Origin: Cupriavidus taiwanensis LMG 19424
Lineage (GTDB): Bacteria; Pseudomonadota; Gammaproteobacteria; Burkholderiales; Burkholderiaceae
DNA: 64,000 bases
Direction: 5' to 3'
Assembly: GCF_000069785.1 (NCBI RefSeq)
Contig: NC_010529.1
Coordinates: 186,001-250,000, forward strand
Part shown: positions 18,282 through 50,665 of the stretch, one piece after another
Layout: each line of letters starts with the position of its first letter
Numbering within the stretch: position 1 is the first letter of the stretch
Program-made: the position numbers and the translations under genes
The notes under the pieces: generated by a model
What the model was told of the DNA's origin: nothing
Database searches by the model: none
The model's input: the letters and a program-made list of their open reading frames with translations, nothing else

Positions 18282-18788
18282 GTTGAACGCACCAACGACC
18301 AAGGTCTTCCATCCACCGACGCTCTCTTCGGCAATGAGTATCCTTGGCGGAATCTACATAGGGCTGTTTTTTTAGATAGCCGATAACCGCGTTGACGTCC
18401 TTGGCCGCATCCATACCGCTTGCCACGGCATCGCATCCGTGCCGACGGAGGTAGCCTTCCGAATTACCATAGCCACGCATCATGGGCTCGGCCACGACAT
18501 ATCCGCGCGACAGCAAATAGCCCGTCGCAAAATTAAAACGAAATCGTGTGGTTTTCCAGGAATGAGCCGTGGTTTAGTACCGCAAGAAATGGACTCGGAC
18601 CCGGCCGGGTGTACAGCGTGACTTCGAGCTTGACCGGATCGTCGGGATTTCCTTCCACCAGAATCACCCGCTCGCTTTTCTGCACGACCTCTGGAAGATG
18701 CTGCTTCGGTTCCCTCTCAGCGAGGGGCGCACAGGCCGCGACGAGCAAGGCCCCCGAAGGCCAGAAGCAAAGAGAGATGCTTTGACAT
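18282..18788 (-). pseudogene. Lipoprotein hydrolase, 5' part; split by IS-C and frameshifted
   Basis: Minus-strand remains of a secreted alpha/beta hydrolase of the dienelactone-hydrolase type. ATG 18788 starts M-S-K-H-L-S. After one frameshift comes the lipobox L-V-A-A-C, then L-N-H-G-S-F, then after another frameshift S-R-G-Y-V-V-A-E-P-M-M-R-G-Y-G. After a third, near 18343, comes I-L-I-A-E-E-S-V-G-G-W, where the family has the nucleophile motif G-x-S-x-G-G (here G is Glu). It ends at V-V-G-A-F-N against IS-C copy 1. The next residues, I-P-G-V-K-G-L, are found at 50637 beyond IS-C copy 4. It lies 42 bases after the TolC gene and was probably the last gene of the secretion operon. Confidence 0.75.
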
Positions 18789-18829
18789 GGATTTACTTTC
18801 TCCCTTCGCAAATGCCGTGGCGGTTTCGT

Positions 18830-20272
18830 TCATCGTTCCACCTGTACATTGTTCATGCCAAGCCGCCCCAGGCTGCCCGCCAGCCGCAACCGCGTGGCTT
18901 TCCAATCGGCCAGTGCCTGTACGCGCTGCTGCTTGGCATTGGCCAGCGCCGTTTGCGCATTCAGCAGTTCGAGAATATTGCCGACGCCGGCCTGATAGCG
19001 ATGTTCGGCAGCGTTAAAGGATTGCTGCGCAGTATCGAGTAGCGTTGCGCTGTACTTCACGCTGTCCGTGGCGGTTCGAACGGCCTGATAACTGCTCCAC
19101 ACCTCCAGCCCCACCTGCTGGCGCGCAGCATCCAGACCGTCGTGCTCGCGTTCGAGCTGTGCCTGGGCCTGATGGATCCGGTACAAACGGCCAAAACCTT
19201 CAAATAACGGGATCGTGAGCTGAATCCCGACATACCAGTCGCGTCCGGTAGCCGGAAAGCTCGGGACGCCGAGCCCTAGCGTAGCTGGCTGATTGTTCAG
19301 GCTGTAGCGGGATACCAGGCCGAGGCTGGGCATGCCCTCGGCGCGCGTCTGGTCAACCCTGGCCGCCGCCGCATCCACCTGGGCCTCGGCGGCCATCACG
19401 CTTGGATGTGCCTGCCTGGCGCCCTCGATCAACTCGCCAACCGCCTGGGTGAACTGCGCGTCCGTCCTCACCTCGTCGCCCACACCGGGCAGGGTGAGCG
19501 GCACGTCCGGCGATAGATTCATGTCAGCAGCGAGCGTGCCAACGGCGGTTTGCCACTGGCCGTCCGCCTTGGCGCGGTTTAGTACCGCCTGCGTATAGGC
19601 CGTCTGTGCCTGCAAGGCATCCGAGATGGGCGCCACGCCTTTGTCCACCCGCCCCGAGGCCGCGCGGAGGCTGTTCGCCGCCATCGCCTCCACATCGCGC
19701 GCCGCAACCAAGGCGCCCGCACTCGCCTGGGCCGTGTAGTAATCCTTGGCCGTGGTCACGAACAGGCTTTGCACGGTGGCATCCTGCGTTGATTGTGCGG
19801 CAGCCAGCAATGCCGATGCGCTGCTCACGGCAGCGCTACGCGCACCGAAATCGTAGAGCACCCAATTCAATGCCACGTTGCCGGTGCCCACATTGGCGAG
19901 CGTGGCCGAACTCAGATTCGGATGCCTGGTCACATCCGTCCTCGCCCCGTCTCGCACGTACTGCCCGGTGCCGTTCACGGTCGGCAAGTAGCCTGCCCGC
20001 GCAGTCCCCACGCCAGCGGCCTGGGCCTTGACATCGGCCCAAGCCTGGCGCGTCTTTGGGTTGACGCATAGCGCCCGTTCGACGGCCTCGCCCAGGAGCA
20101 GCGGCGAGACTGGCGGCCCGGCCCGACATCCGGCGATGTCCGGAATGAGCGCGCCGGCAGGGGTGGCCGGAAGGTGCTGCTCCGCGCGCAGCGGGTCGAA
20201 GGCCTGCGCGTCCTGGACCAGCCCCCATAGCCCGGCCAGGATGAGGGTGAGCGGGATGCGTCTAGCGTTCAC
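18830..20272 (-). CDS. TolC-family outer-membrane channel of a type I secretion system
   Basis: A 480-residue protein with a Sec signal peptide (about residues 1-24, ending D-A-Q-A). Two repeated halves of long amphipathic helices follow, typical of the OEP family; conserved features include Q-A-W-A-D-V-K-A-Q-A near the first repeat and Y-Q-A-G-V-G-N-I-L-E-L in the second. It forms the outer-membrane exit duct for the HlyB/HlyD pump encoded just upstream; the adaptor gene overlaps it by 11 bases. The frame is intact. Length is normal for the family. Confidence 0.9.
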   Translation of the reverse strand: MNARRIPLTLILAGLWGLVQDAQAFDPLRAEQHLPATPAGALIPDIAGCRAGPPVSPLLLGEAVERALCVNPKTRQAWADVKAQAAGVGTARAGYLPTVNGTGQYVRDGARTDVTRHPNLSSATLANVGTGNVALNWVLYDFGARSAAVSSASALLAAAQSTQDATVQSLFVTTAKDYYTAQASAGALVAARDVEAMAANSLRAASGRVDKGVAPISDALQAQTAYTQAVLNRAKADGQWQTAVGTLAADMNLSPDVPLTLPGVGDEVRTDAQFTQAVGELIEGARQAHPSVMAAEAQVDAAAARVDQTRAEGMPSLGLVSRYSLNNQPATLGLGVPSFPATGRDWYVGIQLTIPLFEGFGRLYRIHQAQAQLEREHDGLDAARQQVGLEVWSSYQAVRTATDSVKYSATLLDTAQQSFNAAEHRYQAGVGNILELLNAQTALANAKQQRVQALADWKATRLRLAGSLGRLGMNNVQVER

Positions 20273-21692
20273 GCAAGCTCTCCTGAGCGGCCTCGATCAC
20301 GGGGCCTAGGAAGTATTCGGCCACCGTGCGCTTGCCGGTACGGATATCCGCCGTAACCGCCATGCCAGGCGTGAGCGCGATCCAGCGGTTCTCCACCCGG
20401 ATGCGGTTAGTGGTGAGGCGAATACGCACCGGAAAGGTGAGCCCAAGCTTCTTGTCGTTGGTAGCGTCATTCGACACGGAGAGCACCGTGCCCTCGATGA
20501 AGCCATAGCGGGAATAGGGAAACGCCTCCACCTTGACCGCGACAGCCTGGCCCACGTCCACAAAACCGATATCCTTGTTTTCCAGTTGTCCCTCGACCTC
20601 CAGCGTGTCGTCGGGCACGATTTCCATCAGCGCCTGGGCCGTGGTCGCGACACCGCCCAGTGTGTGCGCGGCGAGTTGCTGCACCGTGCCGGCCACGGGC
20701 GCGGTGAGGCTCATCAGTTCCTGGCGCGTCTGCGCCTTGGTCTCATCGTTGCGGCTCTGCGCCCCCTGCTGGGTGTGTTTCTCCAGCTCATCGAGCTGGT
20801 CATGCCGAAACTTCGAGGCTAGCGCCCCCAGTTCGGCCCGCTGCTCGGCGATACCGGCCGTAAGCTCCAGCACGTGGGCACGCTGGGCCGCCAGCTCGTT
20901 CTCCAGGTCCAGGGCCTTCTGTTCCTTGTCCAGGTAATCGTGACGCGCCACATACTTGTCAGCCACCAGCGCCTTATAGTCCATGGCCTGCTGGCGCGCA
21001 AGCGGCGCGGTGGCCTGTAACCGTGCCACTTCGGCCCGTGTGCTGTCCCGCGCCGCCTCGCGCTTGTGCAGCTCTGCCTGCGCGCTGTCGATGCGATCCT
21101 GATACTCGCGCCAGGCGCCATTGGCCAGATGCTGGGCTTCGCGCATTCGGTCTTCCGACGCGCCATCCACCTGCACAACCTGCGGCGGTTGTTTGATTTC
21201 CTGCGCGCCAAGCAGCGCCCGCGCACGGGCCGCACCGAGGCCGGCATCGACGCGGGAGAGGTACGCCTTGTCCGCATCGGCGGCGGCCTGAGTGGTGTCG
21301 AGCTTCACCAGCAACTGGCCCGCCGCCACGCGCTGGCCATCACGCACGAGGATTTCGCGAATGACGCCGGTCACCGCCGGCTGAATCACCTTCACCCGCG
21401 CATTGGGTACAAATTTCCCCTTGGCAGTTACCACGATATCGAGCTTGCCAAAGATGCCGATCAATAACACCAGTCCGGTTAGCGCCACAATGATTCGCAT
21501 TGTCCAGCGGGGCGCCGGATGCGCTGGCGTTTCCGCCAATTCCAGATGGGCGGGGAGAAATGCCAGTTCGTGCGGGGTCCGACTGGGCGCGTCCAACTCG
21601 CGACGGATGTGCCAGGCCGCCCGGAATACGCTGGCGTAGCGGCGCAGCGGCTCACGCAGCGCCGCCCATTGGGATACGCCGGGGGTACTCAT
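20262..21692 (-). CDS. hlyD: HlyD-type membrane fusion protein of a type I secretion system
   Basis: A 476-residue adaptor with a cytoplasmic N-terminus, one membrane segment (about residues 66-84) and a lipoyl/biotinyl half-motif near P-A-V-T-G-V-I-R-E-I. A long coiled coil follows (about 150-320, with Gln/Glu/Ala-rich heptads), then the second lipoyl half, L-T-A-P-V-A-G-T-V-Q-Q-L, and a beta-barrel C-terminus. It links the ABC exporter to TolC across the periplasm. The ATG overlaps the stop of the HlyB gene (ATGA), so the two are translationally coupled. Confidence 0.92.
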   Translation of the reverse strand: MSTPGVSQWAALREPLRRYASVFRAAWHIRRELDAPSRTPHELAFLPAHLELAETPAHPAPRWTMRIIVALTGLVLLIGIFGKLDIVVTAKGKFVPNARVKVIQPAVTGVIREILVRDGQRVAAGQLLVKLDTTQAAADADKAYLSRVDAGLGAARARALLGAQEIKQPPQVVQVDGASEDRMREAQHLANGAWREYQDRIDSAQAELHKREAARDSTRAEVARLQATAPLARQQAMDYKALVADKYVARHDYLDKEQKALDLENELAAQRAHVLELTAGIAEQRAELGALASKFRHDQLDELEKHTQQGAQSRNDETKAQTRQELMSLTAPVAGTVQQLAAHTLGGVATTAQALMEIVPDDTLEVEGQLENKDIGFVDVGQAVAVKVEAFPYSRYGFIEGTVLSVSNDATNDKKLGLTFPVRIRLTTNRIRVENRWIALTPGMAVTADIRTGKRTVAEYFLGPVIEAAQESLRER

Positions 21693-23821
21693 AGTCCGCT
21701 GTCCTGTAACGAGACGAGATGGGCATAGTAGCCACCCAGTGCCAGCAACTCCTCATGCCTGCCCCGTTCCACGATACGGCCGCCGTCCATGGCAATGATC
21801 TGGTCGGCGTGGCGCACGGCGGTGAGCCGGTGGGCGATGATGATCACCGTGCGTCCGGCGCAGATGGCCTTCATATTGTTTTGGATAATTCGCTCGGTCT
21901 CGAAATCGAGCGCACTGGTGGCTTCGTCGAACACCAGCACGCGCGGATTGGTCAGCAGCGCCCGTGCAATCGCCAGGCGCTGCCGCTGGCCGCCCGAAAG
22001 GTTGCCGCCGTGTTCACCGACCACCGTGTCGTACCCTTCCGGCATGTCGCAGATAAAATCGTGCGCTCCCGCCAGCTTCGCCGCTTGCATGACTGCCTCC
22101 AGCGGGGCGCCGGGATCGGTGAGCGAAATGTTGTCGCGGATCGAGCGATTGAACAGCAGGTTCTCCTGCAACACCACGCCGATCTGGCGGCGCAGCCAGG
22201 AGGGATCGGCCAGCGCGAGGTCGATGCCATCTATACGCACCGCGCCCTGCTCCGGCAGATAGAGTCGCTGTAGCAGTTTGGTGAGCGTGCTCTTGCCTGA
22301 GCCCGAGCGCCCGACAATACCCACGACGTGGCCGGTGGTGATCCCCAGGCTCACGCCATCGAGGATCGGCGGGCCGTCCGCGCGATAGCGGAAGCGGATG
22401 TTCTCGAACACGATGCTGCCCTTGATGGACGGCGGCGTTTGCCGGCTTTGCGCCAGCTCCGTGCGCGTATTCAAGATGTCGCCGAGGCGGCTCATGGATA
22501 TACCGACTTGCTGAAAATCCTGCCACAGTTGCGCGAGGCGCAGCACCGGGGCGCTCACGCGCTGCGACATCATGTTGAAGGCGATCAGCGCGCCCACGGT
22601 CAGCTTGCCGTCGATGACGAGCTTGGCTCCAAAAAACAGCGTGCCGAGCGTCACCAGCTTCCCCACCAATTGAATCGCCTGCTGCCCGACGTTGCCGAGT
22701 GAGGTCACACGGAAGCCCGCCGCGACGTATGCCGCGAGCTGGGTTTCCCAGCGTTTGACGAACTGCGGCTCCACGGCCATGGCCTTGACCGTTTCGATCC
22801 CGGACACCGATTCCACGAGGAACGATTGGTTATCCGCGCCACGGGCGAACTTGTCGTTCAGGCGCTTGCGCAGCAACGGCGTAATGAAGGCGGAAATCGC
22901 ACCGTAGAGCGGCAAGGACAGAACCACCATCAGCGTGAGCCAGACGCTGTACAGGCACATGACAGCGAGGAACACCACAGAGAACACCAGATCGATGAGC
23001 GCGGTCAGCGCCTGGCCGGTCAGGAAATTTCGAATGCTTTCCAACTCCCGCACGCGTGCCACGGTGTCGCCCACACGCCGCGCGCCGAAATAGGCGAGTG
23101 GCAAGGCTACAAGATGGCGAAACAGGCGCGCGCCCAGTTCCACGTCGATACGGTTGGTCGTGTGCGCGAATACATGGTTGCGCAGGCCCGTGAGCAACAC
23201 CTCAAATACCGAGCTGACAAGGAGCGCCAGGCACACCACGTTGAGGGTGCTATAGGTGCGGTTCACCAGCACCTTGTCCATCACCACCTGGAACATCAGT
23301 GGCGACACCAGCCCGAACAGTTGCAGCGCCATCGAAACGCCGAGCACTTCCAGCAGCAGGCGGCGGTACTTGACCACCGCCGGGATAAACCATGAGAAAT
23401 CGAAGCGAGCCAGCTCGCCTGCCAGGGAGGCGCGCGAGGTGAAAAGCAGGATGCGCCCGCTCGTACGCGCCACTATCTCTTCGATCGGCTTGGGTGCGGG
23501 CGCCGACATGCCGGGCTCCAGTATCAGCGCGGTCTTGCCATCGGAACCGGCGAGAATGAAATGCCGGCCCGCACTGTCCAGCACCAAGGCCGGGAATGGG
23601 GTCTTGCCAAGCCGATCTGCCACCAGCGCCACTGCTCGGGCTTTCAGGCCCATGCCACGAGCGGCTAATACCAGATCGGCCTCAGAGAAGGACTCGCCAC
23701 CGAGCGCGGCGGCATGGCGGATTTGCGCGGCATCCGTAGCAATGCCATGAAATCGTGCGATGAGCACGAGCGCAGCCAAGCCGGCATCGTCGAGACGCGC
23801 CAGGTTTTCGTTCGAACCCAT
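21689..23821 (-). CDS. hlyB: HlyB-type ABC exporter with inactive C39-like domain
   Basis: A 710-residue exporter. Residues about 10-130 form a C39-like domain in which the catalytic cysteine is absent (D-D-A-G-L-A-A-L at the active-site block) while the R-H-F-I-L histidine remains, as in haemolysin-type exporters that do not cleave their substrate. Six membrane segments follow (about 150-440). The ATPase domain has Walker A G-R-S-G-S-G-K-S-T, signature L-S-G-G-Q-R-Q-R and Walker B V-L-V-F-D-E-A-T-S-A-L-D. The lack of protease function predicts a substrate with an uncleaved C-terminal signal, fitting the RTX-substrate-like protein encoded 103 bases upstream. Confidence 0.93.
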   Translation of the reverse strand: MGSNENLARLDDAGLAALVLIARFHGIATDAAQIRHAAALGGESFSEADLVLAARGMGLKARAVALVADRLGKTPFPALVLDSAGRHFILAGSDGKTALILEPGMSAPAPKPIEEIVARTSGRILLFTSRASLAGELARFDFSWFIPAVVKYRRLLLEVLGVSMALQLFGLVSPLMFQVVMDKVLVNRTYSTLNVVCLALLVSSVFEVLLTGLRNHVFAHTTNRIDVELGARLFRHLVALPLAYFGARRVGDTVARVRELESIRNFLTGQALTALIDLVFSVVFLAVMCLYSVWLTLMVVLSLPLYGAISAFITPLLRKRLNDKFARGADNQSFLVESVSGIETVKAMAVEPQFVKRWETQLAAYVAAGFRVTSLGNVGQQAIQLVGKLVTLGTLFFGAKLVIDGKLTVGALIAFNMMSQRVSAPVLRLAQLWQDFQQVGISMSRLGDILNTRTELAQSRQTPPSIKGSIVFENIRFRYRADGPPILDGVSLGITTGHVVGIVGRSGSGKSTLTKLLQRLYLPEQGAVRIDGIDLALADPSWLRRQIGVVLQENLLFNRSIRDNISLTDPGAPLEAVMQAAKLAGAHDFICDMPEGYDTVVGEHGGNLSGGQRQRLAIARALLTNPRVLVFDEATSALDFETERIIQNNMKAICAGRTVIIIAHRLTAVRHADQIIAMDGGRIVERGRHEELLALGGYYAHLVSLQDSGL

Positions 23822-23872
23822 GGATCAGTGCGAAATTGTTCTTGTTAGACGGGGTGGCTATCGACAAGCGTA

Positions 23873-23900
23873 GAAAAACCGGCGCCCTCGCAAGGGCGCC
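23873..23900 (-). terminator. Internal terminator between secreted protein and exporter genes
   Basis: On the minus strand GGCGCCCT and AGGGCGCC form a perfect 8-bp GC-rich stem around a 4-base loop, followed by GGTTTTTC. It lies between the stop of the secreted protein gene (23925) and the HlyB start (23821). The layout matches haemolysin operons, where partial read-through keeps exporter levels below substrate levels. Confidence 0.7.
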
Positions 23901-23924
23901 GTCTGCTACCGTCGGGGTGACGTA

Positions 23925-25364
23925 TCAATGAGCCGCCAGTTGCAGTGTGGTTTGATCCTGGGGCAGCGCCTGCGCAACGATGCTACCGGCTGCGTCCGGC
24001 GCATACGCGGCCATTGCCTGAATCAACTGATTCACTTGTTTTTGGGCGAAGGTATCCGCCGCGCTAGGCGTCTGGCCGTTGCCCGGATTGAACATCAGAT
24101 TGACCCCGGCAATGTCGCCCGTGGTGCCATCGGCGCGCGTGTACGTGCCGTCATCCAGGATGGTGTTGCCGTTGCTGTCCTGGCTGATGTGCGTGGCATC
24201 CAGGTTGATCCCTGCAATACCCAATTGGTCGAGGGTGTACAGTTGCCCGCTCTGGAACTGGCCGGTGCCTGTCGTATCACCCCACACCTTGAGGGTCTGC
24301 CACGTTGCCACGTTGGCGCCCACATTGAAGACGTTGTTGCTGGTGCAGACTAGGTCATTGGCACCGGTGTTGATGGTGTTGTTTGTACCGTTCGCCGTGA
24401 CCGTGACATTATTGCCGGCGTTAATGGTGTTGCCAGTGCCGTTCACTGTAGCGGTGGCGCCATTCAGAAGATTAACGGTTGCATTATTCGCATTGACCGT
24501 CGCACTAGTATAGACATTTTCGGTAAGCAGATTGCCAGATGGATTCGTAACGGTCGACGTGCTCGGCGCTGTTCCAGTGAACTTTACCTGGATCGTATTA
24601 CCGGATGAGTAGTTCTCCGACATCGAACCAATCTGATTGGTCGCGTTGTTGTTCGTAAAGGTGACCGATTGAAGGGTTCCAGGCGCGGGAGCCTGTGCGC
24701 CACTGGCTGCGCCGTAATAATTGAAGTAGGCCTGCCAGTTAACACTGTTCGGCAAGGTCGCATAGACGCCCATTGCACTATCAATCAGAATCTGCCGATC
24801 AGAACCGATAAGGCTACTGGAGCGAATATCCGTGGCATGTTGCGTATCAAGTAACGACTGAAGCCCGGTACTACTAACGCTACCATCAGGATTCGCCTTA
24901 TACTCGCCCGCCAAATAAATCTGCGGACCATTATTGCTCAGAATCTCCCGCTGAACCACCCAGTTGTTATAGACTGCTTCGCCCTCTTGATGCAGGCCGA
25001 CCATGGCGCTCATCGCATAGGCGTCTGGACTACTGGACGGAACTGCATACGCCGATTTGAAGTCAGTGTCGGCTTTCACATTCGCGAAATGACCGATCTC
25101 ATGGGCCAAGCTACCGATGACCTCGCCATCCGGCCAAGTTTTCCAATTGCTAGCAAACGTAATTCCTCCCCCTTCCTTGAAGAACATGCTGCCATCGGGC
25201 CCTTGAACAATTGGGTTCAATGATCCCGCAGCAACTGCCGCCTGGTAATCCAATAGCTGGGACACAAGAGTTGGACTCTTGTTTATAAGTGCAATCTGAC
25301 TCGTTGAGAGTCGGACGTTACCCCACATTGATTCATTGCCCGTGATAATCTGATTACTTGTCAT
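23925..25364 (-). CDS. Secreted metallopeptidase-like protein, type I secretion substrate
   Basis: A 479-residue protein without an N-terminal signal peptide. H-E-I-G-H at residues 88-92 is the zinc-metallopeptidase HExxH signature, and the E-G-E-A-V-Y-N-N-W segment (about 127-135) could give the third ligand. Residues about 270-345 are an Asn/Thr/Val repeat region (N-T-I-N-A-G-N-N-V type). The C-terminal 110 residues, with T-L-D-Q-L-G-I-A-G-I-N-L-D and D-D-G-T-Y-T-R-A-D-G-T-T-G, resemble the region before the secretion signal in large RTX/bacteriocin-type substrates. The gene overlaps the upstream lipoprotein gene by ATGA and precedes the exporter genes. The target of the enzyme is unknown. 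Confidence 0.75.
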   Translation of the reverse strand: MTSNQIITGNESMWGNVRLSTSQIALINKSPTLVSQLLDYQAAVAAGSLNPIVQGPDGSMFFKEGGGITFASNWKTWPDGEVIGSLAHEIGHFANVKADTDFKSAYAVPSSSPDAYAMSAMVGLHQEGEAVYNNWVVQREILSNNGPQIYLAGEYKANPDGSVSSTGLQSLLDTQHATDIRSSSLIGSDRQILIDSAMGVYATLPNSVNWQAYFNYYGAASGAQAPAPGTLQSVTFTNNNATNQIGSMSENYSSGNTIQVKFTGTAPSTSTVTNPSGNLLTENVYTSATVNANNATVNLLNGATATVNGTGNTINAGNNVTVTANGTNNTINTGANDLVCTSNNVFNVGANVATWQTLKVWGDTTGTGQFQSGQLYTLDQLGIAGINLDATHISQDSNGNTILDDGTYTRADGTTGDIAGVNLMFNPGNGQTPSAADTFAQKQVNQLIQAMAAYAPDAAGSIVAQALPQDQTTLQLAAH

Positions 25365-25981
25365 GGTAACTCAACCATTTTCCTGTTTTGAAATAAACTG
25401 ATATTTGTTGCACAGTCAATCGTAGAGAAGCCAACTATCAACTCAATCCAATTCTCCTTGTAATTGAATCCATAAAAATAGTCCTCACCCGGGTGATCAT
25501 AATTTCTATGTGATATACCTCGACCGAATTTATCAAAGAGCACGCCACGAGTTATACATATATTATTTCGATCAAGATAATCACCAAATGACACCCTCGG
25601 CAGCCCTCCATCACTCGGCGCAAGGGTTCCATATGACGCGCTGGGAGTTGTTGAATAAAGAAAAGTTTCTTGAGACGCCGATGCGATCTTGAAATCCCGT
25701 CGGATTCCAATTAACTCATTAGTTTTCGGATGAAAGGCTTGATGCGGCTCTCCGTGGCTAAATTTCAGTCGAAAGCTTTCCGCCAATAGTTCGCTATTTG
25801 TTAAATCGCCATGCTCAATGACGTTATTGATCGCTGCGAGAAAAGCCTCCGGTGTTCTGGCAGCATCTGATGCCGACCGCGAGCCCGCGCAGCCATATAG
25901 GTAGCCAATGGAGATAGCAATAGCAAGCACTGTCGCTTTGCCTGAAAGATGGCGCCCATTACGCCTTCGATAGCTGATCAT
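25361..25981 (-). CDS. Lipoprotein encoded directly before the secreted metallopeptidase
   Basis: A 206-residue protein from ATG 25981. In-frame codons continue upstream to 26122 but lack a signal sequence and run toward IS sequence, so the shorter form is preferred. Residues 12-28 are a hydrophobic signal ending in a lipobox-like L-Y-G-C, so the product is probably membrane-anchored in the periplasm. The rest has no motif I recognise; it is rich in aromatic and charged residues and has two later cysteines. Because its stop overlaps the start of the secreted metallopeptidase gene by ATGA, a role as immunity protein, chaperone or receptor for that protein is a reasonable inference. Confidence 0.6.
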   Translation of the reverse strand: MISYRRRNGRHLSGKATVLAIAISIGYLYGCAGSRSASDAARTPEAFLAAINNVIEHGDLTNSELLAESFRLKFSHGEPHQAFHPKTNELIGIRRDFKIASASQETFLYSTTPSASYGTLAPSDGGLPRVSFGDYLDRNNICITRGVLFDKFGRGISHRNYDHPGEDYFYGFNYKENWIELIVGFSTIDCATNISLFQNRKMVELP

Positions 25982-26122
25982 TTGAGCTTTATCACCTCCA
26001 AGTATGTTGACACCCAGCGTCAAACACGCAAATCTGGTCATGCCCTTAGGCACGCCTCCGCCATGCTGAATAAACTCAGAAAAAATGCACCGAATATTCG
26101 CACGAGCAAACCAGCCCATCAT

Positions 26123-27703: not shown

Positions 27704-27745
27704 ATTCGATCTGGGAGTTCGGCACGCAGCGAAATTTTTTGCTAA
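26150..27745 (-). mobile_element. IS5-family element with long transposase, approximate limits
   Basis: The element carrying the frameshifted 526-codon transposase frame. Its limits are estimated from loosely similar AT-rich ends, around TGAAAAATTCAG on the left and AGCAAAAAATTT read inward from the right. No target duplication was found, and an IS-B copy abuts it on the right at 27753. Its left end lies in the region upstream of the lipoprotein/metallopeptidase operon and may have removed or supplied that promoter. Confidence 0.45.
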
Positions 27746-27752
27746 ACCTTAG

Positions 27753-37553: not shown

Positions 37554-37555
37554 CC

Positions 37556-41242: not shown

Positions 41243-41383
41243 CTAGCAAAGTTTCGGTAAACTGTGTTGAGGCCCGAATGCGAAGTTGGCAAAATGGGAA
41301 CGTAGATCGATCCAACCGTGGTTTAAGAATTCATTGAAAAACGCTTGAATTTATTGCTGCATTCGTTGACACGGCCATCAATC

Positions 41384-41911: not shown

Positions 41912-42164
41912 ATTTAATGGCAAATGAGTCTTGCGCGGAATAATATTAGTGCTGGTGCGACTCGGACCGAACCGGTCAGCAAATAGGCCTTCAATTTAGC
42001 CTATCACGTAATATCGGTGAAAGCCGCAGCCATGCTGCTACGGCAATTTGCGAAAGTAATAGGACATCTCTGCAACTGTAGCGATGCGAGTTATTCGGCG
42101 ATTGTGCGTTTGGGGGCGGGTTCGAGCGGTAATCCTTGGCTGTGGGCATCTCGGTACCGGCCTT

Positions 42165-43132
42165 TCATAATTGTGCCCAATAAGTCTTGTTGGAGAGGCA
42201 AGTGTTCGCTGTCGCGCGAAACGCTCGCCAACAGTATTCGATCATGGATCTATCTGTAACCCGCGCGGTCATATCTTCGTCTTTGCAGTAGTCCGCGAGC
42301 GCACCCTTCAGCGCCTCTTGTAAAGTGCTGAAGAATGTGTTGCCCATGGAAATATTGCTCATGTAAGTTGCCGGGTAGCCTGTGTATATACCGTATTGAA
42401 GGCACCGTCGGACAAATGCACTTCCATGTCTTTGCGAAGGCATGACAATATCGAACATGGCGTCGCTTCCTAAGACACGCGCGGGTATTCCGAAGCTAGC
42501 GAACGACTCGTGGAACAACCTCTTGAGCACTGCGCCGCTATCCGCCAAGCGAGCTACAATGCCATCTTCTTCGAAAATTTGCTGCGTTAGATTAGCAGCT
42601 ACGAAGGCTCGATTTTCACGTAAGTAGGTGTTGCCAAGATAAACACCATCCGCCCCGGACATGGCATCGGCCGTACCAATAACCGCAGAAAGGCCAATTC
42701 CCTGTGCGAGTCCTTCGGACAAGGTAATCAGGTCGGCCGGGACCCGGTGTGCTTGGCAGTAACCACCGTCGGCGTAACGAAGTCCGCAAAGCACCTCGTC
42801 AACGATCAAAAGCGCTCCATGCAGCATAGCCATTCTAGCGCTTTGGTGGAGTAACTCCGGAGGAAAGACCGATGGCTCTGGCGTGACTACAATTCCGGCG
42901 ACTTTGCCTCTGTTCCAACTCAACATCTGCTGCAAGATATCTAAGTCATACTGAAAGTCCTGGATGTAATGGTCTTTGGCTGTAGAATCGTCAGACCACG
43001 GGTACCGTTGGAAGATGTCATGCCAACCGTGAAAACCGGCTGTTAGGATAATTGGTTGACCGGTTCGACGTCGTGCGATGCGGACAGCTGCCTCCGTTGC
43101 ACAAGATCCGGTCCTCAAGAAGAAGGCCCTAG
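42165..43132 (-). pseudogene. Class III aminotransferase-like gene, 5' end lost to IS-A, PLP lysine absent
   Basis: The minus-strand frame is open into IS-A copy 3, so the N-terminal third is missing. The remaining 322 codons resemble glutamate-1-semialdehyde aminotransferase-type enzymes of polysaccharide or secondary-metabolite loci: L-R-T-G-S-C-A-T-E-A-A-V, A-G-F-H-G-W-H-D, L-L-I-V-D-E-V-L-C-G-L-R. Where the family has the PLP lysine (for example F-G-K-G-M-A-N-G), this protein has L-S-E-G-L-A-Q-G, so Lys is replaced by Glu. It could be a non-catalytic relative, or the substitution could follow loss of function. Confidence 0.7.
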
Positions 43133-44319
43133 CAGGCCGCTGAAATACCTCCAGCGGACGTCAGCGCGACGACTGGCTGAAGCGTTGCTTTGAGGATCCC
43201 ATCCAATCCCACATTCATGCGCGGCGCAGATACCTTCACGGGAAGCTTGTTCACTATGCGGAGGCTGGAGGATTTCGTGCCGCAGTCCCATCCGCTGCGC
43301 TCGATCCGGACTATGGCCAACCAGGCGCTGGTGAAGATGGACCGGCTGTTCGCGCAGATGTACGAGGCCGATATCAAGGGTGGCCGCCCCAGTATCGCGC
43401 CGGAGAAGTTGCTGCGGGCCATGCTGCTGCAGGTGCTCTACAGCATTCGCTCTGAGCGCCAGCTCATGGAGCAGACGCAATACAACCTGCTGTTTCGCTG
43501 GTTCATCGGGCTGTCGATGGACGACTCAGTTTGGGTGCCCACGGTCTTCACCAAGAACCGCGAGCGACTGATCAAGCATGATGCGGTGATCCAGTTTTTC
43601 AACGAGGTGCTGGCCATCGCGCAGAAGAAGAACTGGCTGTCGGGTGAGCACTTCAGCGTGGACGGCACGCTGATACAGGCGTGGGCAGGCCACAAGAGCT
43701 TCGTGCGCAAGGATGGCGACGACCAAGACGATGACGCCGGCGGCAACTTCAAAGGTCGCAAGCGCAGCAACGAGACACACGAATCCAAGACCGATCCCGA
43801 TGCCAAGCTCTACCGCAAGGGCAAGACATCCAGTGAGCTGCGCTACATGGGTCATACCCTGAGCGACAACCGCCATGGCCTGGTGGTTAGCGCCATGGTG
43901 ACCAAGGCGGACGGACACGCCGAGCGGGAGGCCGCAAAGGTCATGCTTAACGATGCCAGGCAGGTGATTGAAGACCTGAATGTGGAAGTCACCGTGGGCG
44001 CGGACAAGGGCTATGACGCGCACGAGTTCATTGAGGCCTGCCTGGAAATGAAGGTGACGCCCCACGTGGCGCAGAACACATCGGGTCGTCGCTCGGCCGT
44101 TCCTGATGCCATTGCTTCCAGCGCCGGTTATGCCGTCTCGCAACAAAAGCGCAAGCTGATCGAACAGGGCTTCGGGTGGGTCAAGACCGTGGGGCGCATG
44201 CGTCAGGTGATGGTGCGCGGTCTGAAGAAAGTCGATCAGATGTTTGTGCTGAGCATGGCCGCCTACCACATCGTGCGCATGCGCTCGCTGGGACAAATCC
44301 GTCCGCAGTTGCAGTAATC
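43133..44319 (+). mobile_element. IS-A copy 3, truncated at one end
   Basis: On the plus strand it begins with the CAGGCCGCTGAAATAC end after CTAG. It runs through the whole transposase gene, then leaves the IS-A sequence 2-7 bases after the stop codon, joining an IS66 tnpC fragment. About 142 bases with the other inverted end and the tandem hairpins are missing, so this copy cannot move on its own. Confidence 0.88.
43217..44317 (+). CDS. IS-A transposase (IS5 family), copy 3
   Basis: 366 residues, intact. It has Gly in T-F-T-G-S-L-F where the other copies have Glu, and Ile in Y-H-I-V-R. All catalytic candidates are present, so it could act in trans on the complete copies although its own element lacks one end. 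Confidence 0.88.
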   Translation: MRGADTFTGSLFTMRRLEDFVPQSHPLRSIRTMANQALVKMDRLFAQMYEADIKGGRPSIAPEKLLRAMLLQVLYSIRSERQLMEQTQYNLLFRWFIGLSMDDSVWVPTVFTKNRERLIKHDAVIQFFNEVLAIAQKKNWLSGEHFSVDGTLIQAWAGHKSFVRKDGDDQDDDAGGNFKGRKRSNETHESKTDPDAKLYRKGKTSSELRYMGHTLSDNRHGLVVSAMVTKADGHAEREAAKVMLNDARQVIEDLNVEVTVGADKGYDAHEFIEACLEMKVTPHVAQNTSGRRSAVPDAIASSAGYAVSQQKRKLIEQGFGWVKTVGRMRQVMVRGLKKVDQMFVLSMAAYHIVRMRSLGQIRPQLQ

Positions 44320-44718
44320 CCGCTCTGACTCCGGCAGTTCGTGGCGCATTGGCACGCGGGGAAGCGCCGGGTCCAACGGCTTGCGGCCGCGCTTCTTGCG
44401 CTTGTGACCGGCCACCTCAATCTCTGGCGTACCTTCTTCTTCCTGTGCCGGAAGTGTCGCCGCCGTTGGCGCCAGCGTCTCGGCTTCATTGAGGAACAGG
44501 TCCTTCTGCTGCGATCCCCGAACCTCGCTCGTGGCGCCGAACAGCTTGCGCTGGAAGGCCTTGAGCCTCTCGAGCAGCAGGTCACGCTCGACCGTCACCA
44601 CGCGCAGTTTGCCTTTGAGCGCATCGCGCTCCTTGGCGGCATTGCGCAAGAGCTGGAGTTCCGCGGCGGTAATCGTGACAGGCGTTGACGACATGGCGGA
44701 TTTGACCGTCGATGTCAT
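44320..44718 (-). pseudogene. tnpC: IS66 tnpC, N-terminal part only
   Basis: From ATG 44718, about 133 codons remain of the roughly 500-residue IS66 transposase. They include a coiled-coil leader, L-L-L-E-R-L-K-A-F-Q-R-K-L-F-G (an IS66 N-terminal hallmark) and the Lys/Arg-rich K-R-K-K-R-G-R-K-P-L segment. The gene then runs into IS-A copy 3 and loses the catalytic domain. Confidence 0.8.
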
Positions 44719-44725
44719 GCAGCGT

Positions 44726-45076
44726 TCACACGGCCCGTTGGTAATGTCGCGGCGGGTGCCGCTGGACGGCACTGATGTCGATGCCGTCCAGCAGCCAGTG
44801 AAGTTGCTCGACCGAGAGCGTCGCCACTGCCGCCCCACGCGGCCAAGCAAAACGGTCTGCCTCAAGTCGTTTCAAAAAGAGCCAATATCCGTTCCGGTCC
44901 CAGCCAAGCAGCTTGATCCTATCGGCTCGTCGATTGCGAAACACGTAGACCGCTTGTGCGAACGGATCGAGCCCCAGCGACTGCTCGACCAGCGCCGACA
45001 GACCATTGATACTCTTGCGGAAATCCACAGCTTCCCGGTGCAGGTAGACCTTCAGCCCTTCGTCGAAGCGGAACAT
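44726..45076 (-). CDS. tnpB: IS66 family accessory protein TnpB
   Basis: A 116-residue protein with the IS66 Orf2 signature: V-D-F-R-K-S-I-N-G-L, P-F-A-Q-A-V-Y-V-F-R-N-R-R and I-K-L-L-G-W-D-R-N-G-Y-W. The ATG overlaps the tnpA stop by one base. Intact, but useless without TnpC here. Confidence 0.9.
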   Translation of the reverse strand: MFRFDEGLKVYLHREAVDFRKSINGLSALVEQSLGLDPFAQAVYVFRNRRADRIKLLGWDRNGYWLFLKRLEADRFAWPRGAAVATLSVEQLHWLLDGIDISAVQRHPPRHYQRAV

Positions 45077-45534
45077 CAGCTCGCCCCCAACGCTTCGATC
45101 ATCGCCTTTACGAGTTCACCGTCACGCTCACCGCATGCGAGCTCAATCGCTACGCCGTTTGGCAACTTCGCACTCAGCAGCGCGACTGATCGCGACGGCT
45201 GAGGTTGCGGTTCAACTGCCACGGCCGTCGTGCGACGCGGCGCAGTGACCACAGCTTCGACTTCAGGGGATCGGATTCCCTGAACAACCGGCACGAACGC
45301 CGCCAGCGAACCGTGTTCCACTGCCCTCGATTCCCGATGCAGCCGAATCCATTTGCGCAGTTGATTGGCATTGACTTGAGCCTTGAGCGCCATGCCTGCC
45401 ACCGATGCGCCAGGCCGAAGACACAGCTCAATCAAACGCCGCTTGGCCACCGGCTCGTAATCGCGTTTCCCATTGCGCCGGACACGCACTACTCGCAGTG
45501 GAAAGCAGTCAACATCAATATCGTCAGTGATCAT
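45076..45534 (-). CDS. tnpA: IS66 family accessory protein TnpA
   Basis: A 152-residue protein from ATG 45534 with a helix-turn-helix region (G-A-S-V-A-G-M-A-L-K-A-Q-V-N-A-N-Q-L-R-K-W) of the IS66 Orf1/TnpA type and a C-terminal conserved block (A-I-E-L-A-C-G-E-R-D). It overlaps tnpB by one base. Intact. Confidence 0.82.
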   Translation of the reverse strand: MITDDIDVDCFPLRVVRVRRNGKRDYEPVAKRRLIELCLRPGASVAGMALKAQVNANQLRKWIRLHRESRAVEHGSLAAFVPVVQGIRSPEVEAVVTAPRRTTAVAVEPQPQPSRSVALLSAKLPNGVAIELACGERDGELVKAMIEALGAS

Positions 45535-45621
45535 GGTTTGCGTCCGCAAAGTGTTTGCGGACGCAAGCCTGCCAAGACTCACCCTACAAAACTAGGACGC
45601 CGTTTCTCGGTCGCTTACGTC

Positions 45622-47093
45622 ATCCCCTTATACGGAAGTAGGACCGTCTCCGCGGCGAGGCTTGGAGCTTGAAGTCCCGGGAATTTCGAGGTAAGGGGGT
45701 TGTTAACTTCGCCAGACTCGCGTTTACTCTCGGATTTTCGCGCAGCAATGAGCAACGAGTCGGGGGCATGGGTGGACGAGGAATTCGAGAGTCTGGATCT
45801 TGGTGATCCGGGGCGGGATCGGCGCGCCAAGGAGCTGCTCAAGCGGTTTGCGGCTCTGCCGACGGCGAGCATCCCCGGCGCATGCGATGACTGGTCGCAA
45901 ACCATCGCGGCATATCGGTTTCTCGGCAATGAGCAGATCGATTGGCGGGACGTAATGCAGCCGCATTGGGAGCGCACTGCAGCGAGGGCCGCGCAGTTTC
46001 CGGTGGTGCTGTGCATCGCTGATACAACCGAATTGAACTTTAATGGCCAGGAGATCGACGGGCTGGGTCCGTTGACCTATGAAGCCCAGCGGGGCATGTT
46101 TTTGCATCCGACCTACGCGGTGACGCCTGACCGCGAGCCGCTGGGGGTGATCGATGCCTGGATGTGGGCTCGGGAGCCCAAGGACGCCGATGGCAACCGG
46201 GGCGGGATCAAGGAAAGCGTACGCTGGATTGAAGGATATGAACGGGTTGCGGAGCAAGCCGCGCTATTGCCGCAGACACGGCTGGTGTATATGACAGACC
46301 GCGAGGGTGATATTGCCGAGTTGATGGCGCGCGCCCAGGAACTTGGCCAACCGGCCGACTGGTTGATCCGCAGCCAACACAACCGCAACCTGGCCGAGGG
46401 CGGCAAGTTGTGGGATAGCGTCGACGCCAGCCCGGTACTCGGGGAAATCACCTTTATCTTGCCAGGGCGAGCAGGCCAGAAGGCGCGCGAGGTCAAACAG
46501 GAACTACGCGCCCAGCGTATGAAGCTGCCGGGTCTGGTCGGAGCGGAGTTCACCTGTGTGGCGGCAAGGGAGATCGAAGCGCCCGCAGGCGTCAAGCCAG
46601 TGGTTTGGCGATTGGTGACGAACCGAGAAGCGCAGGACGCTGATGCGGTCAACAAACTTGTTGAATGGTATCGGGCAAGGTGGGAGATCGAGATGTTCTT
46701 CCATGTCCTGAAGACCGGCTGCAAGGTCGAGGCGCTACAGCTATCGCACATGGATCGTGTGGAGCGGGCCTTGGCGTTGTATATGGTGGTGGCATGGCGC
46801 ATTGCCCGCCTGATGCGGTTGGGCAGAACCTGTCCGGATCTGGATGCGTCGCTGTTCTTCGATGCCGACGAGATTCGGGGGGCATACGTGCTCTCCAAGA
46901 AAGCTCGCCCGAAGACACCGGTCACACTCAATCACATGATTCGGTTGGTTGCTTCCCTGGGCGGGTTCCTTGGGCGGAAGAACGATGGCGAGCCCGGCGC
47001 CAAGACGATCTGGATCGGCATGCAGCGAACCATGGACGCCGCGCTCACTATTCAAACACTGAGGGAAGAGTCATGACTTCCGTATAAGGAAAT
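45622..47093 (+). mobile_element. IS-C copy 3 (IS4 family), complete
   Basis: 1472 bases, same ends as the other copies. The left flank (GCTTACGTC) and right flank (GGGTCTTAACG) share no 9-bp duplication, so either they come from different insertions or one side was later deleted. The left edge is 3 bases from the IS66 terminus. Confidence 0.9.
45748..47076 (+). CDS. IS-C transposase (IS4 family), copy 3
   Basis: 442 residues, intact, from ATG 45748. It has Gly in L-G-D-P-G-R-D as in copy 1, but Y-M-T-D and L-N-H as in copies 2 and 4, a mosaic that fits recombination among copies. The catalytic signature is complete. Confidence 0.92.
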   Translation: MSNESGAWVDEEFESLDLGDPGRDRRAKELLKRFAALPTASIPGACDDWSQTIAAYRFLGNEQIDWRDVMQPHWERTAARAAQFPVVLCIADTTELNFNGQEIDGLGPLTYEAQRGMFLHPTYAVTPDREPLGVIDAWMWAREPKDADGNRGGIKESVRWIEGYERVAEQAALLPQTRLVYMTDREGDIAELMARAQELGQPADWLIRSQHNRNLAEGGKLWDSVDASPVLGEITFILPGRAGQKAREVKQELRAQRMKLPGLVGAEFTCVAAREIEAPAGVKPVVWRLVTNREAQDADAVNKLVEWYRARWEIEMFFHVLKTGCKVEALQLSHMDRVERALALYMVVAWRIARLMRLGRTCPDLDASLFFDADEIRGAYVLSKKARPKTPVTLNHMIRLVASLGGFLGRKNDGEPGAKTIWIGMQRTMDAALTIQTLREES

Positions 47094-47400
47094 GGGTCTT
47101 AACGGCGTCTTTTGTGAGGATTTACTTTGCTCGTTTGGCACATCGCTTGGATGGTGCACTTCCACGGGAATGGCCATTCAGTCCGAATTTATGGGCCAAC
47201 TGCGTGAGTGCGATCATTCCCAAATGGCCTATCAGGAATACGATTTTCTTCTACCATGGCGTACCCAGCTCAGCAACGAGAACACGCGATGTCATATTTC
47301 TCTTTTCGATGACCGTTGAACACCCAAGCTGCCACCGGGTCCGATGACAACGAGACCAAGACACTCTAATTTCTTGGATATCCCAAAAACAGGGCGACAT
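47094..47400. other. Gene remnants between IS-C copy 3 and the cation exporter gene
   Basis: 307 bases with short open frames on the plus strand but no start, motif or family I can support. It may be the 3' end of a gene cut by IS-C copy 3. Confidence 0.3.
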
Positions 47401-48336
47401 CTATTCTGCCTTGAGGGTTTTCGTAAAGTAAACCGGGTCGACGTGAGTCATAACGTTGAGTACGCGATGGTGCTCCATCGTGCGCCGCCGGGCATCGACG
47501 GCAATCGCATGGCCCTGTGCCACTGTCAGCGTGGCCTCGACTTCAAGATGGACATCAACGAGCACCTGGTCGCCCATCTTGCGGGTGCGCAGGTCGTGCA
47601 AGCCGAGCACGCCGGGCGTGCCCAGCATGGTGGCGCGAATGTCGGCGACGGTTACTTTGTCGGCGGCGCGGTCCATCAGGTCATTTAGAGCGTCCCAACT
47701 GAAGCGCAGTCCCATGCGCGCGACCATCAGCGCCACTACCATTGCCGCGATCGGGTCGAGGCTGTGATAGCCGAGCAGGTTGCCGGCGATGCCAAGCGCC
47801 ACCACCAACGATGAAGCCGCATCCGAGTGCGCATGCCAGGCATTGGCTACCAGCATGCTCGAACGGACCCGCCGCGCCACGGCCAGCATGTAGCGGAACA
47901 GCAACTCCTTGGATGCCAGCGCGACCACTGCCACCCAAAGTGCCATTGGCTGAACCGGCTGTGGCCCGGCGGGATGCTGCAGCTTGCCCAGTGCTGCCCA
48001 CAGCATGCCCGCCGCCGCCGTCAGCAGCAGCACACCCAGGACCAGCGACGCTGCTGTCTCGAACCGCAGGTGTCCATACTGGTGATCGGCATCCGGATCC
48101 TTGCTGCTTTGCGCTCCGGCGGCCAGTACGACAAAGTCTGAAAGTAGGTCGGACAGCGAATGTGCGGCGTCGGCAATCAGCGCCTGCGAGCCGGAGATGA
48201 TGCCGGCCGCCCCCTGGGCGATGGTCAGGCCGATATTGACCGCCACGCTGACAAGCGTGCTGCGCCAACCGGCGCTGTAACGCGCCTGTGCGTCAGTCGG
48301 CCTTCTGGCGTCGTTTTCGGGTAGTTCGGGACGCAT
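47401..48336 (-). CDS. Cation diffusion facilitator (CDF) metal exporter
   Basis: A 311-residue inner-membrane protein with about six membrane segments. The zinc-site pair of CDF proteins is visible: D56-A-A-H-S-L-S-D63 in helix 2 and H168-A-H-S-D172 in helix 5. The cytoplasmic C-terminal domain (about 215-300) has the V-x-D-I-R and H-D-L-R-T-R-K-M-G-D-Q-V-L-V-D-V-H-L pattern of the CDF regulatory domain. It exports divalent metals such as Zn, Fe, Co or Mn by proton exchange; the exact metal cannot be told. Frame and length are normal. Flanks on both sides are IS debris. Confidence 0.9.
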   Translation of the reverse strand: MRPELPENDARRPTDAQARYSAGWRSTLVSVAVNIGLTIAQGAAGIISGSQALIADAAHSLSDLLSDFVVLAAGAQSSKDPDADHQYGHLRFETAASLVLGVLLLTAAAGMLWAALGKLQHPAGPQPVQPMALWVAVVALASKELLFRYMLAVARRVRSSMLVANAWHAHSDAASSLVVALGIAGNLLGYHSLDPIAAMVVALMVARMGLRFSWDALNDLMDRAADKVTVADIRATMLGTPGVLGLHDLRTRKMGDQVLVDVHLEVEATLTVAQGHAIAVDARRRTMEHHRVLNVMTHVDPVYFTKTLKAE

Positions 48337-49155
48337 CTGGTGAATTTCGATTTGGTCCTGGAACTATAGCTCAAAGCGACAGGAAGTAGATCATCACGTA
48401 TTTGTGGTGACGAAAAAAGTCCTGCATTGGCTGGGCTACACCTCTGCTTTTAAAAGATTGATCCTTGAAGCGATTTCCCAATTCTAGTCTTTTCCCTTTA
48501 AGGCTTCTTTGACCACGCGAAAACACCGAGCAGCACAAGCAAAGAAAATGCGAATCAGTACACCATCCACAAGCGCGAAGGATCTCCTGCCTGGTGCGGG
48601 AGGTGGGTCAAAAGCAAGCCGATCAGCCAGACAAGCCTCCACGCAGACAACAAACCTGTCGCCGTAAGCTGCGTCCGCGGTCGCGATAGATTGTCATACT
48701 TCCACTTGATTGGCTTGAAGTCATCCCGGAATGTGATTGGCGACAACGTTAGTCAAGAACGCAGCGAACTGATCGCTGGTAGGGACTGTCAGAAAATTTC
48801 TGTTTAGGGCATAACATGTCGCCAAGTAGCACTCAATGAGTGCGCAACACCGCAGCGTATCTGTCGCATCCACTGCGTTGTCCGTTCTTGCCAAGGCTCT
48901 GACCTGATCAACAATGTTGAAGAAGAGAGTTAGCTCCTGCAGTTGGAAGCCGACTGTGCATAGAGCGTCATCCGGATACAGGCGAATCGTGAACCTGTAG
49001 GGACGATAATGAATCTCTTTCAAGGTGTTCGGCGGGATTGAAATTGACCTGGGCCAAATCTAATTCAAATTATCGAGTCGGTCCATTTTTTCTGCACTAA
49101 AATGATACCAGACGTCAGCGCTTTGCAACGCTGGAGGTTACCACCCACTCAAGGC
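48337..49155. other. Degraded region with an IS256 end remnant
   Basis: 819 bases without an intact gene. A minus-strand open stretch from 49023 (K-E-I-H-Y-R-P-Y-R-F-T-I-R-L-Y-P-D-D) reads like part of a real protein but is interrupted at the IS256 remnant (48782-48827). Another short minus-strand frame lies at 48555-48746. Neither is recognised. The right edge meets IS-C copy 4. Confidence 0.35.
48782..48827 (+). repeat. Solo IS256 left-end remnant
   Basis: GGGACTGTCAG followed by TTTAGGGCATAACATGTCGC and AAG matches the first 46 bases of the IS256 element at 15032 with a few changes. No transposase sequence follows, so it is a truncated end. Confidence 0.75.
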
Positions 49156-50627
49156 ATCCCCTTATACGGAAGTAGGACCGTCTCCGCGGCGAGGCTTGGA
49201 GCTTGAAGTCCCGGGAATTTCGAGGTAAGGGGGTTGTTAACTTCGCCAGACTCGCGTTTACTCTCGGATTTTCGCGCAGCAATGAGCAACGAGTCGGGGG
49301 CATGGGTGGACGAGGAATTCGAGAGTCTGGATCTTGGTGATCCGCGGCGGGATCGGCGCGCCAAGGAGCTGCTCAAGCGGTTTGCGGCTCTGCCGACGGC
49401 GAGCATCCCCGGCGCATGCGATGACTGGTCGCAAACCATCGCGGCATATCGGTTTCTCGGCAATGAGCAGATCGATTGGCGGGACGTAATGCAGCCGCAT
49501 TGGGAGCGCACTGCAGCGAGGGCCGCGCAGTTTCCGGTGGTGCTGTGCATCGCTGATACAACCGAATTGAACTTTAATGGCCAGGAGATCGACGGGCTGG
49601 GTCCGTTGACCTATGAAGCCCAGCGGGGCATGTTTTTGCATCCGACCTACGCGGTGACGCCTGACCGCGAGCCGCTGGGGGTGATCGATGCCTGGATGTG
49701 GGCTCGGGAGCCCAAGGACGCCGATGGCAACCGGGGCGGGATCAAGGAAAGCGTACGCTGGATTGAAGGATATGAACGGGTTGCGGAGCAAGCCGCGCTA
49801 TTGCCGCAGACACGGCTGGTGTATATGACAGACCGCGAGGGTGATATTGCCGAGTTGATGGCGCGCGCCCAGGAACTTGGCCAACCGGCCGACTGGTTGA
49901 TCCGCAGCCAACACAACCGCAACCTGGCCGAGGGCGGCAAGTTGTGGGATAGCGTCGACGCCAGCCCGGTACTCGGGGAAATCACCTTTATCTTGCCAGG
50001 GCGAGCAGGCCAGAAGGCGCGCGAGGTCAAACAGGAACTACGCGCCCAGCGTATGAAGCTGCCGGGTCTGGTCGGAGCGGAGTTCACCTGTGTGGCGGCA
50101 AGGGAGATCGAAGCGCCCGCAGGCGTCAAGCCAGTGGTTTGGCGATTGGTGACGAACCGAGAAGCGCAGGACGCTGATGCGGTCAACGAACTTGTTGAAT
50201 GGTATCGGGCAAGGTGGGAGATCGAGATGTTCTTCCATGTCCTGAAGACCGGCTGCAAGGTCGAGGCGCTACAGCTATCGCACATGGATCGTGTGGAGCG
50301 GGCCTTGGCGTTGTATATGGTGGTGGCATGGCGCATTGCCCGCCTGATGCGGTTGGGCAGAACCTGTCCGGATCTGGATGCGTCGCTGTTCTTCGATGCC
50401 GACGAGATTCGGGGGGCATACGTGCTCTCCAAGAAAGCTCGCCCGAAGACACCGGTCACACTCAATCACATGATTCGGTTGGTTGCTTCCCTGGGCGGGT
50501 TCCTTGGGCGGAAGAACGATGGCGAGCCCGGCGCCAAGACGATCTGGATCGGCATGCAGCGAACCATGGACGCCGCGCTCACTATTCAAACACTGAGGGA
50601 AGAGTCATGACTTCCGTATAAGGAAAT
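49156..50627 (+). mobile_element. IS-C copy 4 (IS4 family), complete
   Basis: 1472 bases. The right flank is GCGTTCAAC (50628-50636) and the left ends CACTCAAGGC. The 9-mer GCGTTCAAC is absent on the left but present, inverted, beside copy 1 at 18282-18290. Copies 1 and 4 are in opposite orientation, so recombination between them inverts the segment between. Confidence 0.92.
49282..50610 (+). CDS. IS-C transposase (IS4 family), copy 4
   Basis: 442 residues, intact, from ATG 49282. It has L-G-D-P-R-R-D as in copy 2 and a unique Glu in A-V-N-E-L-V-E-W where the others have Lys. The catalytic signature is complete. Confidence 0.92.
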   Translation: MSNESGAWVDEEFESLDLGDPRRDRRAKELLKRFAALPTASIPGACDDWSQTIAAYRFLGNEQIDWRDVMQPHWERTAARAAQFPVVLCIADTTELNFNGQEIDGLGPLTYEAQRGMFLHPTYAVTPDREPLGVIDAWMWAREPKDADGNRGGIKESVRWIEGYERVAEQAALLPQTRLVYMTDREGDIAELMARAQELGQPADWLIRSQHNRNLAEGGKLWDSVDASPVLGEITFILPGRAGQKAREVKQELRAQRMKLPGLVGAEFTCVAAREIEAPAGVKPVVWRLVTNREAQDADAVNELVEWYRARWEIEMFFHVLKTGCKVEALQLSHMDRVERALALYMVVAWRIARLMRLGRTCPDLDASLFFDADEIRGAYVLSKKARPKTPVTLNHMIRLVASLGGFLGRKNDGEPGAKTIWIGMQRTMDAALTIQTLREES

Positions 50628-50665
50628 GCGTTCAACATCCCGGGCGTCAAGGGCTTGGCAGTGAT
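50628..50665 (+). pseudogene. Lipoprotein hydrolase, continuation beyond IS-C copy 4
   Basis: Directly after IS-C copy 4 the plus strand reads A-F-N-I-P-G-V-K-G-L-A-V. It begins inside the 9-bp target duplication and continues the minus-strand hydrolase pseudogene that ends V-V-G-A-F-N at 18282. In the family this stretch lies just after the nucleophile motif and reads like N-x-P-x-V-K-G. Similarity fades after about 50665, where HesB-type sequence on the other strand takes over. Confidence 0.65.

Follow-up and report, generated by a model that had tools for sequence, protein, structure and literature searches.

Homologous recombination between copies of an insertion sequence (IS) is a well-known mechanism, and the locus described here resembles other IS-mediated inversions and deletions of bacterial replicons in its identical IS copies, exchanged flanks and split target duplications. 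We analyzed a stretch of 64,000 bp (G000:C2:186001-250000, hereafter the window) of the 557,200 bp contig C2, which belongs to a genome of 6,476,522 bp in three contigs. C2 presumably corresponds to plasmid pRALTA of Cupriavidus taiwanensis LMG 19424, a symbiont of Mimosa. An element here named IS-C is present in many near-identical copies on this contig, and a hydrolase gene is split between two of them (copies 1 and 4). Compared with IS-mediated inversions in general, several flank pairs together with empty sites in a sister plasmid make multiple exchanges readable, and it is this preserved record of exchanges that is the useful part.

IS26 can cause intramolecular replicative inversions, and inverted target copies beside inverted IS copies are the known pattern for replicative elements of this kind. 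Copies 1 and 4 of IS-C show the same picture. However, IS26 differs in both family and mechanism: the transposase of IS-C is of the IS4/Tn5 type, and its other flank pairs are explained without replicative inversion.

A second comparison is offered by experimentally evolved Ralstonia clones, the plasmid of which is presumably the same as C2. According to the available passages of that study, deletions of the C. taiwanensis symbiotic plasmid were flanked by transposable elements, which makes mobile elements likely recombination sites there as well as here; those were deletions in evolved clones, whereas the rearrangements of the present study are natural and common to three assemblies (PMC5995829). 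The arrangement of copies 1 and 4 is not described in the available passages of PMC2266710, PMC5995829 and PMC7673401, and the genome paper of the strain was outside the search.

IS-C and the split hydrolase gene

The host replicon looks like a nitrogen-fixation (symbiotic) plasmid of a Mimosa root-nodule bacterium. Sequence NZ_CP016951.1 of C. taiwanensis SWF66294 (from Mimosa nodules) aligns to positions 10500-30000 of the window in one piece with 100.0% identity. Plasmid I of strain STM 8555 (NZ_LT984809.1) was used as sister plasmid, and no exact 15-bp IS-C end is present in it.

In a census of IS-C on C2, with 40 out of 100 candidates scored, at least 11 full copies were found. The copies are numbered as follows by their start on C2: 1 (202807), 2 (223555), 3 (231621), 4 (235155), 5 (358162), 6 (368678), 7 (390688), 8 (432591), 9 (437287), 10 (478947) and 11 (447069). 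Copies 1 to 4 lie within the window. The element is 1474 bp long with the boundaries CATCC...AAATG; the flank at the CATCC end is referred to as L and the flank at the AAATG end as R, followed by the copy number. At copies 5 and 8 the 9 bp on either side are the same (CGCTTACGT and CCCATACGG, respectively), which sets the register of the target duplication at 9 bp.

The transposase scored above the cut-offs for Dimer_Tnp_Tn5, Tnp_DNA_bind and DDE_Tnp_1 (Tn5/IS4-type DDE). In copy 4 it carries at residue 324 the YREK motif (YRARWEIEMFFHVLK), the spacing of which is Y-2-R-3-E-6-K. The length of 1474 bp and the duplication of 9 bp fall inside the ranges given for the subgroups IS50 (1350-1550 bp, 8-9 bp) and IS4Sa (1150-1750 bp, 8-10 bp) in the available part of the description of the IS4 family (PMC2266710). 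The ends of IS-C (CATCCCCTTATACGG) partially fit the end patterns listed there for the CA-ended subgroups. Judged by these sequence features, IS-C is an IS4-family insertion sequence.

Copy 1 (16807-18280, minus strand, transposase 16825-18201) and copy 4 (49155-50628, plus strand) are in inverse orientation with 30.9 kb between them. Next to copy 1 lies the remnant of an alpha/beta-hydrolase gene (18281-18800, minus strand, 5' limit approximate), the reading of which ends with ...GGWKTLVVGAFN (...SVGGWKTLVVGAFN) at the IS. The residues IPGVKGL follow after copy 4 (50629-50657, plus strand, in frame N-IPGVKGL), so that the reading continues in the register of the homologues. The corresponding residues of a homologue across the join are, for example, GGWNTLVFGAQSPPDVKGL, with the motif GKSMGGWNTLVFGAQSPPDVKGL. 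This motif was seen at seven of eight homologue loci examined; the spacing was equal in six of the seven and one had a longer loop. When 60,000 7-mers were drawn from the six frames of plasmid stretches, eight scored as well as IPGVKGL against the homologue residues (fraction 0.00013). The homologue family is that of CocE/NonD-like alpha/beta hydrolases (Peptidase_S15 and related Pfam matches).

The target sequences lead to the same two copies. L1 (CGTTCAACC, 18281-18289, read on the minus strand) and R4 (CGTTCAACA, 50629-50637, plus strand) agree at 8 of 9 bases in the register fixed by the intact copies. This target is absent from the opposite flank of either copy, where R1 (ACCTCAAAG, 16798-16806, minus strand) and L4 (CACTCAAGG, 49146-49154, plus strand) are located. 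The initial annotation had described the inverse orientation, the shared target and its absence from the other flanks correctly. Its perfect 9-bp duplication did not hold: at copy 4 the 9-mer GCGTTCAAC includes the terminal G of IS-C itself and is one base out of register, and with the boundaries taken from the other copies the true match is 8 of 9. The split of one gene across both copies, which it had also proposed, agrees with the reading frame, but the gene is a pseudogene with frameshifts and its 3' piece measures only about 29 bp.

It is thus probable that the two hydrolase halves originally flanked a single IS-C copy and that an exchange between IS-C copies parted them. As a scar of rearrangement the split gene is real, but it results from a longer chain of exchanges and not from one clean 31-kb flip.

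A search of relatives for the uninterrupted gene or for the opposite order found neither: among 60 genomes of the genus the hydrolase piece was present in four including the own genome. Of these, G055 shares the present order, and another two are draft genomes (G023 and G032) in which the hydrolase side is present on contigs that end at or just inside the IS. Within the family, 267 of 398 genomes had a match to the 66-aa hydrolase piece, and the closest match outside the plasmid lineage had 63% identity. The search in plasmids returned two records. For a 24-mer taken from the side of copy 4, no exact match was present in genome_contigs, a collection from which the own and near genomes may be missing. 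The homologues examined read through the interruption point, and none of them was shown to be orthologous at this locus.

Displaced flank pairs across the IS-C copies

An inversion between copies 1 and 4 would leave matching flanks at the reciprocal junction. Here L4 and R1 agree at only 6 of 9 bases. L4 was found to be identical to R10 (9 of 9; C2:480421, beside copy 10), although the two flanks are about 245 kb and the copies 244 kb apart on C2, and R1 matches none of the 11 left flanks on C2 at 7 of 9 or more. L4-R1 was therefore rejected as reciprocal pair in favour of L4-R10, and owing to the mismatch of the reciprocal flanks a simple two-copy inversion is not claimed. In plasmid I of STM 8555 the two flanks are contiguous: L4 maps to 124080-124481 and R10 starts at 124476. 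This empty site is located between a cation transporter gene and a phasin gene, and its target reads CGCTCAAGC (7 of 9 compared to the target on C2). In genome G056, L4 is contiguous with R10 as well. The cation diffusion facilitator gene of the window (47401-48336, minus strand), which adjoins the phasin gene in STM 8555, lies apart from it here.

All 121 L-R comparisons among the 11 copies on C2 were made. At least 8 of 9 bases agreed in L1-R4, L2-R2, L2-R9, L2-R11, L3-R5, L4-R10, L5-R5, L8-R8 and L10-R6, and no pair agreed at 7. L3 is a second copy of L5, and R11 starts like R2 and then runs into a stretch of N. In total, four displaced pairs were identified: L1-R4 (8/9), L4-R10 (9/9), L2-R9 (9/9) and L10-R6 (8/9). 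With random 9-mers of the plasmid, the mean number of pairs agreeing at 8 or more of the 9 bases was 0.015 per 100 (10x10) comparisons. The displaced pairs exceed the level expected by chance.

The L2-R9 pair shares the target CGTCAAAGG, which for copy 2 (37555-39028, minus strand) lies at 39029-39037 (read on the minus strand) and for its partner beside copy 9 (C2:437287). STM 8555 passes at this site from L2-like into R9-like sequence, so that empty sites are present for two of the four pairs. The first 70 bases of R9 scored 35 against the 151 bases beyond L2 in STM 8555. R2 scored 9, and the highest values reached were 13 with 1,000 shuffles and 16 at 2,000 random places. An intact copy 2 (L2-R2) was rejected, since L2 and R9 agree at 9 of 9 bases and STM 8555 continues from L2 into R9-like and not R2-like sequence.

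For the third pair, L10 and R6 are both located inside an IS5-type element. A homologous element of STM 8555 is uninterrupted, with alignments overlapping by 9 bp. The unique blocks beside L10 and R6 are 3.8 kb apart and in the same orientation in STM 8555 (402370-408606 and 412440-419474), a spacing that fits the pairing. As a positive control, the intact copy 8 shows an empty site in STM 8555, again with a 9-bp overlap.

Number of exchanges and alternative explanations

Homologous recombination between IS-C copies explains every displaced pair. According to the explanation we favour, IS-C would have transposed in the ordinary way into several sites of the plasmid with a 9-bp duplication at each. 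The near-identical copies of 1.47 kb would later have acted as sites of homologous recombination, by which flanks were swapped between copies. For four insertions, that into the hydrolase gene included, the two flanks would now adjoin different copies, and the position of the hydrolase halves on inverted copies would imply that some DNA between IS-C copies was inverted. To insertion followed by repeated recombination, taken as a whole, we assign a probability of roughly 80%. We infer homologous recombination, the order of the events and, at each step, inversion rather than excision and reintegration.

The chain R1-[1]-L1~R4-[4]-L4~R10-[10]-L10~R6-[6] has no solution with two exchanges and 16 solutions with three. 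The pair of copies 2 and 9 adds a fourth, and in total at least four reciprocal exchanges are needed. With the block order of SWF66294, 64 minimal four-step histories were obtained, of which seven keep a single circle throughout (inversions only). A direct exchange between copies 1 and 4 is part of 16 of the 64 histories and of three of the seven with inversions only, in the latter each time as the last step. The counts presuppose that exchanges were reciprocal, that the unpaired flanks close the chains and that blocks were not moved by other IS families, the last of which is doubtful.

Several observations weigh against this explanation. A genome with the uninterrupted hydrolase gene was not found, and the L1-R4 pair rests on eight of nine target bases and seven residues. 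L2-R2 agrees at 8 of 9 bases as well, even though it is taken as not original, so that a match of 8 of 9 on its own is no proof and site preference or chance can yield one. The uninterrupted L10-R6 element of STM 8555 is a homologous IS elsewhere and not the same locus. G056 and STM 8555 share 99.99% identity over their largest aligned pieces, so that G056 is not an independent witness for the L4/R10 site. Flanks without partner are L7, L9, R1, R3, R7 and, in the form they have in SWF66294, L6 and L3; R2 has to be added if its match to L2 is set aside. The reconstructed history is therefore incomplete. Furthermore, the four-copy chain closed on itself gives two circles, which means that inversions among copies 1, 4, 10 and 6 alone are insufficient; one circle results when the exchange between copies 2 and 9 is added. 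Finally, many of the differences in block order relative to STM 8555 lie at a distance from IS-C. Other IS families have thus probably moved DNA, and arguments on orientation that consider only IS-C are conditional.

The initial annotation had proposed that the 31-kb segment now lying between copies 1 and 4 was inverted. Of this proposal the exchange between IS-C copies is supported, and a single inversion as the explanation of the whole region is not. Such an inversion, with nothing else of note, has in its favour that both copies are inverted with a shared target and that, in the block order of SWF66294, no single exchange other than a swap of flanks between these two copies rejoins the hydrolase gene, with one circle kept. 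The same inversion could also still be the latest step of a longer history, as in the three histories mentioned above, and may have been the step that split the gene. As the sole event it would predict that L4 matches R1, which it does not, and the L4-R10 identity with its empty site in STM 8555 and the near-identical G056 speaks against it; we consider it unlikely. An intramolecular attack of IS-C on the hydrolase gene, by which the transposase would have inverted the DNA in between, would equally yield two inverted IS copies, each accompanied by one inverted target copy. We regard this as quite improbable, since earlier exchanges would still be required to bring L4 beside R1, and the remaining displaced pairs look like simple insertions that need no transposase-driven inversion. 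In addition, cut-and-paste is the way in which the IS4-family elements so far studied move, such as IS10 and IS50. For IS231A it is stated in the available passages of PMC2266710.

An artificial junction by misassembly through the identical 1.5-kb repeats had also been considered at the outset. The IS-C repeats are numerous and nearly identical, and the draft contigs of G023 and G032 end at them. Yet the flanks of copies 1 and 4 are the same as in the window on the plasmid contigs of SWF66294 (578,456 bp) and G055 (599,597 bp), which are of different lengths though close relatives. Collinearity of both contigs with the window extends over 13657-41245 and 45621-60428. The identity between the two is 99.99% across 49 kb, so that they stem from related strains. 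Because the junctions are repeated in two other assemblies, a misassembly private to this genome is very improbable, and the doubt raised initially is largely answered.

All four displaced pairs were present in SWF66294 as well as in G055. Eight of the ten flank pairings of SWF66294 recur on C2, and G055 agrees with SWF66294 at all nine copies (of 10) that are readable on both sides. On C2, copies 3 and 6 differ in the left flank and copy 11 is additional. The left flank of copy 3 (45621-47094, plus strand) duplicates that of copy 5 (C2:358162), unlike in SWF66294 and G055, and the left flank of copy 6 duplicates that of copy 9. From these changes, recombination probably continued in the LMG 19424 line after the split from the compared plasmids. 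The shared pairs indicate that IS recombination had already shuffled the plasmid repeatedly when the three compared plasmids diverged.

Target-site pairs across all copies found of one IS can thus reveal former neighbour segments of a plasmid, and they correct the natural but oversimple view that one split gene stands for one inversion. Repeated shuffling bears on the scarcity of core plasmid genes among C. taiwanensis strains. In the available passages of PMC5995829, 413 pRalta genes are inferred as ancestral, of which only 12% are in the core genome. That the ledger of IS-C exchanges is readable to the point where the order of the inversions can be solved, and that the 31-kb segment with its secretion operon may still flip in culture, appears doubtful to us. 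If true, the succession of inversions behind a modern symbiotic plasmid could be worked out.

Neighbouring genes and further junctions

Between copies 1 and 4 a type I secretion operon is located (18830-23821, minus strand) with genes for a TolC-like protein, an HlyD-like protein and a peptidase/ABC transporter. Together with two upstream genes, one of which is named hemolysin in the SWF66294 record, it spans 18830-26122. For this stretch no unique DNA match of at least 250 bp was found in plasmid I of STM 8555 or in contig C3 of G056, and it may have been gained or lost between the compared plasmids.

On the other side of the split gene, the 3' piece ends at a sharp junction with a block containing a decayed gene (50658-51190, minus strand), and no IS is present at this join. 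From 50658 on, the DNA is homologous to G056, G043 and STM 8555, where it has other neighbours. The decayed gene resembles, as we assume, those of iron-sulphur assembly proteins.

Next to copy 3, positions 41246-45620 of the window form a mosaic, the pieces of which SWF66294 has at other places. In SWF66294 and G055 this site is taken by a segment that encodes an ACC deaminase, an Lrp-type regulator and an ankyrin protein; a part of 3,682 bp of the SWF66294 segment had no match anywhere in the LMG 19424 genome. The stretch adjoining copy 9 occurs twice on C2 (437287-444999, and inverted beside copy 6 at 364262-370154). It is single in the SWF66294 stretches examined and is bounded by IS66-type and IS-C copies.

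The region next to the right end of copy 2 (37301-37552, 252 bp) shares 87% identity with IS5-type copies and stops within 3 bp of the element. The right flank of copy 2 therefore looks like a divergent IS5-type element that was cut in two.

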